Below, one piece after another: positions 60,184 to 63,837 of a stretch of 64,000 nucleotides of DNA (positions within the stretch are counted from its first letter, which is position 1; every line of letters starts with the position of its first letter). Origin of the DNA: Chloroflexaceae bacterium (GTDB lineage Bacteria > Chloroflexota > Chloroflexia > Chloroflexales > Chloroflexaceae); NCBI GenBank assembly GCA_025057155.1, contig JANWYD010000008.1, forward strand, positions 124,001-188,000. Reading direction: 5' to 3'. The translations under genes and the position numbers were made by a program. Below the pieces are notes generated by a model, which saw nothing but the letters and a program-made list of their open reading frames with translations, searched no databases and had not been told where the DNA came from.

Positions 60184-61518
60184 CTACTCCCCCGCCAGGG
60201 CCAGCAATACCTCGATGAGCAACTGCCCGTGGCGCGCCAGGTCCTCCAGCGGGATGTGCTCGTCGGGACCGAAGAGAGCGCTGTCGGGGCGGGCTACGCC
60301 GACCGAGGCGCAGGGCATCGGATGGGCTTCAACGAAGGGTTGCAGCGGCAGAGCAAAGGCTCCCGCCGGAGCAACAGGTAGCATGACCCCGTGCACCACT
60401 GCTCCAGCCGCGGCAAGCTGGCGAATGAACGGCGCGTCGGGCGGGGTGCGGGCGGGCGAGTAGCCTCCGGGCAACACCTCCAGCGTCACGTCGGTGAAGC
60501 CCTTCTCATCGAGGTGGGCGCGCACCAGACGGGCGATCTCGGCAGGGTGCTGATTGGGCGCCAGATGAAAGTCGAGCGCGGCCTCGGCGCCGGCGGGCAG
60601 CACCGCCAGGTCGCCTTCGGGAAAGGAGCGAATCGCGCTGAGGTTGCAGGTGGGCAACGTCACCTCGGCGCGCACCAGGGGCGCGCCCTGCATGCCGAAG
60701 AGGAACCCGGCGGCGCCCCAGGCGGCCAGGCGCCCCGCTTCGTCGAGTTTGAGCTGGCGCAGCAGGGCGTTTTCCTCGCGCGACGGCCCCTCCACACTAT
60801 CGTAGAAACCGGGGATGCGGATGTCTTCGTCTTCGCCCTTGATCGCCGCCAGGGCCCAGGTGAGCCGCCACAGGGGGTTGGGCAGGGTGGAGGCCGCCCC
60901 GGGAGGCAGGGGATGCGCCGGTCCTTGGGCGCGCAGGCGCACCTGCAACAACCCTTTGCTGCCGCTATAGCACAGCGGCGCGCCGCTGGCGGCACGGTCT
61001 CCTACGCTGCCGAGACAGGCGTCAGCGCGCAGGATGGGGCCGTGGGCGGCGATGGCCGCCGCCAGGCCCGGCGAGCCGATCAGCCCGCCGCCGTCGGCAA
61101 CCACGGTCACGCCGCAGGGCAGGTCGCCCTCGTCGGCGATCATTGCCGCCAGGGCTTGCAGGTGCGCCGCCAGCGGCCCCTTGCCCTCGGCCACGCCCCG
61201 CCCATACACCGCTCCGTCGCGCTCGGCCAGTTGGAAGGGATCGTGGGACCAGGCGCGCCATGGCCCCGGTGGAGGAGCATCGAAACGGTGATAGAGCAGC
61301 AACGTGCGAGGTGTGCGACCCGCGCGGCGGCCGATCACCACCGGCGGCCCGTGCCCATCCACGCGATACACCTGCATGCCCAGGCGTCGCAACAGGGTGG
61401 CAATCAGGTTTGCGCTGCGCGCCAGTTCGTCGGGGCGCCCGACGCTCGAAGGCTGCGCACAGAGCGTCCGCAGGCAATCCACGATCGCAGCGGCCAGCAT
61501 GGACATTGACGCTGACAC
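60184..61518 (-). CDS. M20-family peptidase homologue lacking the metal-binding residues
   Basis: 444 residues from ATG 61518. The M20 dipeptidase layout is clear: LLLYHRFDAPPPGPWRAWSHDPF, VYGRGVAEGKGPLAAHLQAL, VTVVADGGGLIGSPGL and a final GPDEHIPLEDL, with a lid domain in the middle. The catalytic residues are altered: the usual GHYD is HRFD (R78 for the zinc His), GRGxxDDKG has E111 for the bridging Asp, EGEEEIGS reads DGGGLIGS (G144 and G145 for the two Glu) and the last His ligand is F416. It is most likely an inactive relative with a binding or scaffolding role. Confidence 0.85.
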   Translation of the reverse strand: MSASMSMLAAAIVDCLRTLCAQPSSVGRPDELARSANLIATLLRRLGMQVYRVDGHGPPVVIGRRAGRTPRTLLLYHRFDAPPPGPWRAWSHDPFQLAERDGAVYGRGVAEGKGPLAAHLQALAAMIADEGDLPCGVTVVADGGGLIGSPGLAAAIAAHGPILRADACLGSVGDRAASGAPLCYSGSKGLLQVRLRAQGPAHPLPPGAASTLPNPLWRLTWALAAIKGEDEDIRIPGFYDSVEGPSREENALLRQLKLDEAGRLAAWGAAGFLFGMQGAPLVRAEVTLPTCNLSAIRSFPEGDLAVLPAGAEAALDFHLAPNQHPAEIARLVRAHLDEKGFTDVTLEVLPGGYSPARTPPDAPFIRQLAAAGAVVHGVMLPVAPAGAFALPLQPFVEAHPMPCASVGVARPDSALFGPDEHIPLEDLARHGQLLIEVLLALAGE

Positions 61519-61696: not shown

Positions 61697-61881
61697 CACC
61701 CGAACATTTTTCGGCAGAAAGATGATCCGGCGGGCCGTCTCTACCGCGCCGCACCCGTGGATGTCAGTCACGGGCGTTTGACGCCATCCCCGGTTTTCGG
61801 CTAGACTCTCTCCATCCCCGTAGCAAGGCTCGCAGCGCGCGGGCCGCACAACAGATGCTCAAAAAGGAGGTTCACACGGCA

Positions 61882-63837
61882 ATGGCAAGGTTCCTCAAAC
61901 GTCCCGCTGCCATGGTGGCGCTCGTGGCGCTGCTCATCCCCATCCTGGCGGCATGCGGCGGCGCTCCCGCCGCGCCCCAAGTCGTCCGCGAGACGGTCGT
62001 GGTTGTTCAGACGGCCGAGCCGGTGCGCGAAACGGTGGTAGTGGTGGCCACCCCTGAAGCCGGCGCTGGCGCCTTCACCACGCCCCACCCGATCCTCGGC
62101 GATCCGAAGGTGCGCCAGGCGATTGCCTACTGCACCAACCGCCGCGAGTTGATCCAGTCGGTCTATAACTACCTGACTCCCGAGCAGCAGGAACAACTGC
62201 TCATGGACACCAACCTGCCCAGGACCCACTGGGCGGTGGCCACCGAGGCTGATGGGATTGTCACCTACCCCTTTGACCCGGAGAAGGGCAAGGCTCTGCT
62301 TGAGGAAGCTGGCTGGAAACTCGAGGAGGGCCAGACGGTGCGCACCAAGGATGGTGTGCCGTTGAGCCTGGAGTTCACCACCACCAATGCCCAGTTCCGC
62401 ATCACCTGGGCCACGGTGCTGGAAAAGCAACTGCTCGACAACTGCGGCATCCAGATCATCCGCAAGCATGCCCCGGGCTCCTGGTGGTTCGGCAGCGCCT
62501 CGGGCCTGCGCCGGCGCGACTTTGAGCTTGGGGCCTTCGCCTGGGTGGGCGAGGCCGATCCGGGCGGGCGTTCGCTCTACGCCTGTGACCAGATCCCTCT
62601 GCCCGAGAATAACTGGGAAGGCCAGAACTACATGGGCTGGTGCAACGAGGCGGCCAGCCGGGCGATCATCGCGGCCAATAACACCTTGAACCGTGAGGAG
62701 CGCATCAAGAACTACAAGGCTTTCCAGGTGGAGTTCACCAAGGACATGGTCAGCCTGCCGCTGTTCCAGCGCCTGGAAGCCTACGCCTGGAACAAGGCCC
62801 TCCAGAACCTGAAGCCCGACCCCACCGAGTACATCACCGCCAACGCCTACGAGTGGGCGCGCAGCGACAACGAGGATACGATTATCCTCGGCTTCACCCA
62901 GGAGCCGGCCTCGATGTTCTCGCTGGTTGAGAGCGCCGCCGTACAGCGCCAGGCGGCCCAACTGGTTGGCGGCGTACTGCAAACGCAGTATAGCTATGAT
63001 TATCAACCCGTGCTGCAAGACGGCCTCTCCACGATCGAGAGCGGCAAGGCCAAGAATGAGGTGGTTGAGGTCAAGGAAGGCGATACGGTCTGGAGCGCCG
63101 ATGGCGAGGCCGTCGAACTCAAGCCGGGGGTCGAGATCGTCAACTCCGACGGCGAGACCATCACCTACCAGAGCGGCACGGTGAAGATGAACCGGCTCAC
63201 CGTGACCTACGACCTCGTCAAGGGCATTACCTGGTCCGATGGCGAGCCGCTGAAGAAGGCCGACATCGAACTGAGCGTGAAGATTAGCTGCGACCGCGAG
63301 TCGGGCGCCACTTCCTTCACCTTCTGCGACTCGCACCAGGGCGCCGAGGGGGTGAACGTGACCAGCGACACCAGCTACACGATCACCTTCCTGCCGGGCG
63401 TGCAGTGGCCGACCTACTTCCTGGCCCCCTACGGCGGCTATCCCTCCCACCAGACCATTTCGGACGGGCGCAAGCTGGCCGATGTGCCGGCCAAGGAGTG
63501 GGCGACCCTGCCGGAGGTTGCCGAGACGCCGCTGGGCTACGGCCCCTACATCCTCAAGGAGTGGAAGAAGGGCCAGAGCATGGTCTTTGAGGCCAACCCG
63601 AACTTCGTGCTCGGCGCGCCGAAGGTGAAGAATGTGATCATTCAGTTCTTCGGCGATACCAACGCTGCCGTAGCAGCGCTGTTGACCGGCGAGGTTGACA
63701 TCCTCGAGAAGGCCACCCTCGGCGCCGGCCCCGAGGTGGAGGCGGTGCTCAAGGCCGCGGCCGAGGGCAAGATCGAAGCCAAAACTGACGCCAGCCCGAC
63801 CTGGGAGCATATGGATATGAATCTGTTCGTGCGGTAA
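61882..63837 (+). CDS. Family-5 extracellular solute-binding lipoprotein with circularly permuted lobes
   Basis: 651 residues from ATG 61882 (GGAGG eleven bases upstream). The signal ends in ILAAC (C25), then a VRETVVVV-type linker. Family-5 proteins bind peptides, nickel or sugars for Dpp/Opp-type ABC transporters. Here the order is reversed: PKVRQAIAYCTNRRELI and the PFDPEKGKALLEEAGW segment (about 66-325), normally the C-terminal half, come first and end in PTEYITANAYEW. Then at about 331 EDTIILGFTQEPASMF, normally the mature N-terminus, starts the other half (ITWSDGEPLKKADIEL, LGYGPYILKEWKKGQ, VAALLTGEVDIL), which stops at WEHMDMNLFVR. No permease gene follows within the window. Confidence 0.88.
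   Translation: MARFLKRPAAMVALVALLIPILAACGGAPAAPQVVRETVVVVQTAEPVRETVVVVATPEAGAGAFTTPHPILGDPKVRQAIAYCTNRRELIQSVYNYLTPEQQEQLLMDTNLPRTHWAVATEADGIVTYPFDPEKGKALLEEAGWKLEEGQTVRTKDGVPLSLEFTTTNAQFRITWATVLEKQLLDNCGIQIIRKHAPGSWWFGSASGLRRRDFELGAFAWVGEADPGGRSLYACDQIPLPENNWEGQNYMGWCNEAASRAIIAANNTLNREERIKNYKAFQVEFTKDMVSLPLFQRLEAYAWNKALQNLKPDPTEYITANAYEWARSDNEDTIILGFTQEPASMFSLVESAAVQRQAAQLVGGVLQTQYSYDYQPVLQDGLSTIESGKAKNEVVEVKEGDTVWSADGEAVELKPGVEIVNSDGETITYQSGTVKMNRLTVTYDLVKGITWSDGEPLKKADIELSVKISCDRESGATSFTFCDSHQGAEGVNVTSDTSYTITFLPGVQWPTYFLAPYGGYPSHQTISDGRKLADVPAKEWATLPEVAETPLGYGPYILKEWKKGQSMVFEANPNFVLGAPKVKNVIIQFFGDTNAAVAALLTGEVDILEKATLGAGPEVEAVLKAAAEGKIEAKTDASPTWEHMDMNLFVR

Follow-up and report, generated by a model that had tools for sequence, protein, structure and literature searches.

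The gene at positions 61882..63837 (+) of the window, i.e., of the whole 64,000-nucleotide stretch of Chloroflexaceae DNA that was analyzed, was confirmed to encode a lipoprotein that corresponds to a family-5 (DppA/OppA, cluster C) solute-binding protein (SBP) with its two halves in swapped order. Very probably, the product is a naturally circularly permuted cluster C SBP lipoprotein that belongs to a DppABCDF-type peptide importer, with its gene standing first in the operon. Circular permutation had been claimed in an earlier, sequence-only reading of this DNA, and the peptides named in support of that claim were found in the protein where they had been placed.

The open reading frame is intact from 61855 to 63837 (+) and comprises 660 aa from the first ATG (61855); residue numbers refer to this reading unless stated otherwise. 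The ATG at 61882 (651 aa) is more likely to be the start than the in-frame ATG at 61855, since a ribosome-binding-site-like AGGAGG stands 11 nt upstream of it (61865..61870, +). The lipoprotein signal peptide (residues 10-34; 61882..61956, +) ends in the lipobox LAAC with Cys34, and A33 and C34 were conserved in at least 90% of 61 permuted proteins. It is followed by a low-complexity tether linker (residues 35-74; 61957..62076, +), with pLDDT values below 50 at residues 31-70. The old C-terminal half (residues 75-338; 62077..62868, +) comprises domain III (the C-lobe), hinge strand 2 (residues 300-312, equivalent to canonical 594-606; 62752..62790, +) and the old C-terminus, which meets the old N-terminus without an added linker at the junction (residues 337-341; 62863..62877, +). 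The old N-terminal half (residues 339-660; 62869..63834, +) consists of domain I, domain II and again domain I (the N-lobe); its hinge strand 1 (residues 641-655, equivalent to canonical 354-368; 63775..63819, +) now lies close to the C-terminus. An antisense open reading frame (61801-63810, -; 669 aa) spans almost the whole SBP gene and is interpreted as a shadow frame of the GC-rich gene.

The swapped order was evident from several comparisons. SBP_bac_5 (PF00496) was the sole Pfam family above its cut-off (164.4 bits versus 32.4), and it was matched in two stretches in swapped order, the best of which placed residues 441-656 on profile positions 10-207 of 368. The nearest solved structure in a PDB sequence search was 2d5w from Thermus thermophilus: residues 81-319 matched its second half (322-563), and residues 562-658 matched the part just before (210-311). 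Against a profile built from 22 canonical-order relatives, the native order scored 432.3 bits, split in two domains. When residues 75-660 were treated as a circle and opened at every fifth position (118 points) and at 8 extra positions near the junction, the maximum of 449.9 bits was reached with the start at residue 339, as one domain covering profile positions 69-622 of 623; 13 of the best 14 rotations began at 325-345 and were single-domain. The best cut for restoring the canonical order was at residues 337-340. Counted from ATG 61882, the junction at 337-341 corresponds to about 328-332, close to the fusion at about 325-331 proposed by the sequence-only reading. Both halves are complete, and the locus represents a rearrangement rather than a truncation, as had been proposed; a truncated gene or two separate genes were ruled out. 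The alignment is not collinear with a normal SBP_bac_5 protein: in a profile-profile comparison, residues 77-338 aligned to canonical 375-633, i.e., to the canonical C-terminal end (probability 100). In restored order, 547 positions were aligned to the canonical relative L185, with 170 identical, and secondary-structure states agreed at 461 of the 547 (shifted controls: mean fraction 0.344, maximum 0.437). A normal paralogue is also present in the same genome (G000:C21:54093-55502).

The same picture emerged at the termini. The window protein ends with TWEHMDMNLFVR and starts after the signal with TTPHPILGDPKVRQAI, while canonical relatives read VWEHMDFGVERNDGQPSIFADVKLRQAV in the middle of the protein and DPTSQVDFWNIETWDITK at the end. 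Because canonical relatives contain VWEHMDFGVERNDGQPSIFADVKLRQAV, the two terminal segments of the window protein are neighbours in a normal protein, and its end would indeed join naturally to its post-signal start, as had been suggested. Permuted proteins typically end with TWEH(I/M)D(M/F)NLF.(K/R) and begin, past signal and tether, with TTPHPILxDxxVRQAI; at their junction, PTEYYTANxxEWxLxD is fused directly to GDTxVxGFTQEP.

AlphaFold2 predicted the permuted protein in its native order with a pLDDT of 87.6 and a pTM of 0.81 (61 sequences), and a canonical relative with a pLDDT of 87.8 and a pTM of 0.81 (22 sequences). Sequential structure aligners placed only one half of the permuted model. 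Foldseek against the PDB yielded TMq values of at most 0.30 among the 50 matches listed, and VIA aligned 228 residues on 1dpp_A (Z 22.3, rmsd 2.4), with model residues 77-337 on DppA chain residues 272-507. The canonical model was placed end to end by VIA (Z 31.7, rmsd 2.7, 473 residues aligned on 1dpe). The VIA matches listed were family-5-type SBPs.

In EppA, a solved cluster C protein, the hinge is described as two antiparallel strands flanking domain III (PMC7312458), and lobe 2 of AliD as domain III alone (PMC11192437). Both hinge strands were present in the window protein by alignment and model (300-312 and 641-655). With the strands mapped from these published structures by alignment, the break in the chain appears to lie in the loop that follows hinge strand 1, the first of two strands hinging the lobes. 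Strand 300-312 would then be the only covalent lobe crossing left, hinge strand 1 would form the C-terminal tail, domain III would stand at the N-terminus, and the lipid anchor would sit on the C-lobe. A permutation that leaves one lobe crossing could favour a domain-swapped dimer, with lobes pairing between two chains (the C-lobe from one, the N-lobe from the other), and AliC, a canonical cluster C protein, is described as forming such a dimer through this hinge (PMC11192437). However, the single-chain model of the permuted protein was confident across both lobes, and the dimer is considered improbable compared with an ordinary clamshell formed by one permuted chain.

The permuted gene was detected in 37 of 41 genomes searched from the same family (f1; matches below 1e-50), the exceptions being G001-G003 and G035. 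In a sample of the phylum, 43 of 400 genomes gave a match at 1e-50, namely 22/23 from f1, 8/9 from f3, 0/7 from f2, 0/1 from f4 and 13/360 from outside the order. Thus, the same order occurs in other Chloroflexota, where the sequence-only reading had suggested looking for it. When 84,980 species were scanned with six short exact peptide patterns, an approach that picks up close relatives only and not distant cases elsewhere, 48 loci were returned, nearly all from Chloroflexota lineages including Caldilineaceae and Anaerolineae. One of them (L086) carries the name 'Gracilibacteria', which is taken as a mislabel because its match values are identical to those of L031 from an f1 genome. A relative in the genus of the window organism (L041, Chloroflexaceae bacterium) was 95% identical. 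Among 145 loci, 110 frames were permuted and 27 canonical (redundant copies included), and 21 contained one half only; after addition of further loci, 80 permuted and 43 canonical proteins were non-redundant. Both MAGs and cultured organisms encode permuted proteins. The junction was not found in plasmids by tblastn with a 200-aa query spanning it, and a term search of the main text of PMC9316378 for signs of expression in Chloroflexus aurantiacus found no mention of such proteins.

This recurrence bears on whether two genes were joined by an assembly or sequencing error. Nothing in the window speaks for such an error, and some relatives do show frameshift-like splits (L106, L084, L124); yet the same junction is present in dozens of genomes, including the single-contig genomes G007, G009, G198 and G045. 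The dN/dS ratios of the window gene versus five close relatives were 0.07-0.11 for the first half and 0.08-0.18 for the second half; the permuted gene is under purifying selection in both. An artefact, refuted by recurrence, has a negligible probability, and the permuted order is regarded as a genuine property of these genes. Of the two outcomes that the sequence-only reading had named as refuting, a collinear profile alignment and an assembly join, neither was observed.

Several variant loci were observed. In L106 (4051-5094 and 5060-6250, -; G286:C70), the permuted gene is split into two overlapping frames exactly at the junction of the old C- and old N-termini; the split looks like a frameshift, and an error, a pseudogene or a true split are all possible. 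The permuted SBPs of L096 (8035-10500, -) and L125 (4604-7186, +) have frame lengths of 822-861 aa and are extended by about 150 residues at the C-terminus; they form a sister pair in the trees and have no dpp permease in the fetched flank. A divergent second permuted type, 36-39% identical to that of the window and with no permease nearby, is encoded by L107 (6387-8330, -) and L108 (6412-8310, +); in L108, the neighbouring 958-aa frame contains both a Phosphonate-bd domain and a canonical SBP_bac_5. L109 (1659-3719, -; G038:C138) has about 35 extra residues as a linker between the old C- and N-termini. In the single-contig genome G198, a second copy (L110, 6431-7675, -) consists of the old C-terminal half only and adjoins a transposase-looking open reading frame; it is probably a broken copy. 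In L111 (4878-9347, -) and L115 (5310-9953, -), the permuted gene is directly preceded by a canonical SBP gene on the same strand, and a tandem pair of this type could be the source of a permutation by fusion and loss.

The permuted SBP gene heads a complete DppBCDF operon. Directly downstream of it follow dppB-dppC-dppD-dppF (locus L089, 8068-12602), which begin at about window position 64067, just past the end of the window; Pfam matches for two permeases and two oligo_HPY ATPases were obtained in L089, all four adjacent. Where the flank was long enough, complete operons were counted for 48 permuted and 5 canonical genes, and no permease was found in the fetched flank of the permuted genes L057, L058, L062, L095, L096, L107, L108 and of the half copy L110. 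In some Roseiflexus-like loci (L045-L048, L070), the complete permuted operon is followed by a further dppD (57-60% identical) and mostly also by a further dppF. Upstream of the SBP gene, a divergent M20 peptidase gene is located at 60184..61518 (-); this arrangement was found in many Chloroflexales loci, and the peptidase neighbour is retained in permuted loci as well as in a single canonical one. The latter, L094, has a canonical SBP gene in the same slot between dppB and an M20 peptidase gene whose product is 69% identical to that of the window. Therefore, the slot filled by the permuted gene is held by a canonical one in a relative from this family. Given the homology to 2d5w, an oligopeptide-binding protein with a pentapeptide bound, the operon and the M20 peptidase neighbour, the protein most likely captures peptides and hands them over to the cognate DppBCDF. 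A precise ligand is not assigned, since no cut-off of the named NCBIfam SBP equivalogs (Opp4A, NikA, DppA and others) was reached; the best was Opp4A with 123.8 bits versus 650.

The partner permease subunit DppB differed between the two types of operon. The loop was measured as the DppB segment from a conserved RFTRWL-like stretch to a GDFG-like motif. It comprised 67-79 aa with at least two cysteines in all 65 complete DppB proteins encoded behind a permuted SBP gene (67 in total, two incomplete), versus 15-33 aa in 9/9 behind a canonical SBP gene and 15-27 aa in 11/11 other DppB proteins. The DppB behind the split gene L106 had a loop of 73 aa. The insert presumably lies after the scoop segment, as judged from E. 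coli DppB. In E. coli, the part of DppB that follows TM1 (scoop motif) is reported to occupy the cleft of DppA (PMC12136057). OppB-type subunits with enlarged extracellular parts are described also for systems with canonical SBPs, as in AmiC (PMC11192437); therefore, a long loop alone does not require a permuted SBP. The correlation between loop and permutation is one evolutionary contrast and not many. From it, we infer that DppB loop and permuted SBP may be mechanically matched.

Trees of the two halves were calculated for 51 permuted sequences (from 80 non-redundant ones) and 39 canonical sequences (from 43), leaving out near-identical and truncated ones. They placed the permuted proteins on one side of a branch with SH-aLRT supports of 99 and 98. 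In careful 41-row trees, the support of the permuted clade was 100/100 and 100/99 for the two halves. Since a single permuted clade was found in both half-trees, the data point to a single origin of the permuted order. Its sister canonical clade was not settled by half-trees or AU tests. The cysteines do not point to one parent either: labelling three canonical clades H (Herpetosiphon-type), F and An, C244/C263 are common to H-, F- and L093-type canonical proteins, Cys93/Cys197 in the C-half to the An group only (10/10), and Cys479/Cys491 in the N-half to L093 only. L093 (4440-6179, -; G029:C421) encodes a canonical-order SBP that is cut by the contig end, has the N-half cysteine pair and is accompanied by a DppB nearest to the permuted type. 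It is a candidate for the pre-permutation form. A complete L093-like gene was not found in 301 genomes, the best matches being about 30-37% identical. With the gene cut by the contig end, L093 might also be a B-A-B intermediate.

Instead of a single parent, two paralogues in a tandem pair might have contributed, the C-half of one SBP gene being fused to the N-half of the next. Two-SBP operons do exist, with a canonical gene 238 bp (L111) or 721 bp (L115) upstream of the permuted one; the top canonical groups differ between the halves by raw BLAST score, and the cysteine pairs of the two halves are shared with different canonical proteins. However, L093 falls within or close to the sister group in both half-trees, albeit weakly (82/54 and 83/81), and six AU tests rejected no placement (p 0.10 to 0.42), so that two parents are not demanded. 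This chimeric origin is judged rather unlikely, and permutation within one ancestral gene is preferred.

The trees of the operon genes did not agree with one another. In the DppD and DppF trees, operons of Chloroflexales, permuted and canonical alike, grouped (99) apart from those of Anaerolineae and Caldilineae. In the SBP, DppB and DppC trees, the permuted operons grouped together, including the split L106. For 27 of 53 operons, concatenated DppD and DppF rejected the permuted operons as one clade (p-AU 0.009), and concatenated DppB and DppC rejected Chloroflexales as one clade (p-AU 2.6e-7); the tested groups were picked after identity tables and trees had been seen, and the DppB and DppC set may include loop columns. 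Taken singly, DppD (p-AU 0.094) and DppF (0.146) showed no significant discordance, and DppC alone rejected (p 0.0007). SBP, DppB and DppC follow the topology of the SBP, while DppD and DppF follow the organism. We read this as exchange of SBP, DppB and DppC between operons as a set.

The permutation could also be neutral, i.e., fixed by drift with function unchanged, the DppB loop and the linkage of the module being unrelated features of an operon lineage. The permuted type I protein TpMglB-2 is reported still to bind glucose and to close (PMC4990184), and loop and permutation changed in one contrast only. On the other hand, the long loop accompanied the permutation in every complete case and none of the 9 canonical partners, and the topology and DppB plus DppC travel together against DppD plus DppF. 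We consider a neutral permutation possible but on balance doubtful. Equally tentative is the far-reaching alternative of a phylum-wide importer subclass, in which a one-hinge, C-lobe-anchored SBP would be clasped by the two-cysteine loop of DppB, making up for the lost hinge, and in which SBP, DppB and DppC would form a docking module exchanged independently of the ATPases.

The favoured explanation, an importer with a permuted SBP at its head, may be put together as follows. In one ancestor, the old C-terminus would have been joined straight to the old N-terminus, and a break in the short loop that connects hinge strand 1 to the first helix of domain III would have created the new ends. The lipoprotein signal thereby precedes domain III, an order that can be read from the sequence. 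The protein would fold as an ordinary two-lobed clamshell, as the model supports, but each lobe would be contiguous, one covalent strand rather than two would connect them, and the C-lobe would carry the membrane tether. A peptide-like ligand would be caught and passed to its own DppBCDF, as homology and operon suggest. The partner DppB has a lengthened, two-cysteine periplasmic loop, presumably adjoining the segment that extends into the binding protein in E. coli. The SBP would be inherited together with DppB and DppC as a matched set, for which the correlation speaks.

SBPs are textbook Venus flytraps, and their closing is thought to depend on the strands linking the lobes. Here, one of two such links has apparently been cut by nature and the result kept across a phylum, which suggests that loss of one of the two hinge connections is compatible with function in this very common type of clamshell protein. 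The role of chain connectivity and of the anchor-bearing lobe in closure, docking and permease coupling thus becomes directly testable, with the canonical proteins of the same operon slot as natural controls. A permuted scaffold with new ends at the hinge may be useful for sensor design. As a warning, sequence and structure searches bound to chain order detect half of such a protein at a time. Beyond what the sequence-only reading had noticed, the apparent cut at one hinge strand, the Dpp slot that is canonical in relatives and the insertion in the partner permease were recognized here.

Permuted cluster C or family-5 SBPs were not found in the open-licence literature, with subscription journals mostly outside its scope. 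Compared with the cluster C (class II; PF00496) proteins DppA, OppA and NikA, both halves of the window protein are homologous domain for domain and the dppBCDF context is alike, but the order of the halves differs, the anchor would be on the other lobe, and one covalent hinge would be present instead of two. The operon resembles E. coli DppABCDF in its five genes and its DppBCDF translocator, and in E. coli the periplasmic DppB segment after TM1 is reported to contact the SBP (PMC12136057); the DppB found here differs by a periplasmic loop after the scoop region that is about 40-60 aa longer and contains two cysteines. In the pneumococcal Ami system, the enlarged extracellular part of the OppB-type subunit AmiC is described as embracing the SBP, and AliC as undergoing a hinge-based domain swap (PMC11192437). 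The SBPs of the Ami importer are in canonical order, unlike the window protein. The closest parallel is TpMglB-2 (Tp0684) of Treponema pallidum, a permuted type I SBP that is reported to bind and close, and for which the subclass 'Type Ic / Cluster Bc' was proposed (PMC4990184). Both are natural circular permutations, tethered lipoprotein SBPs and parts of ABC importers, and recur in many species. As described there, TpMglB-2 is set apart by its fold class as a type I, cluster B, sugar-binding protein, and its permutation introduces a fourth crossing between the lobes, with both termini remaining in the N lobe. In the window protein, by contrast, one of two crossings would be removed and the N-terminus moved to the C-lobe. 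By analogy, the window protein would be the cluster C counterpart of the TpMglB-2 subclass.
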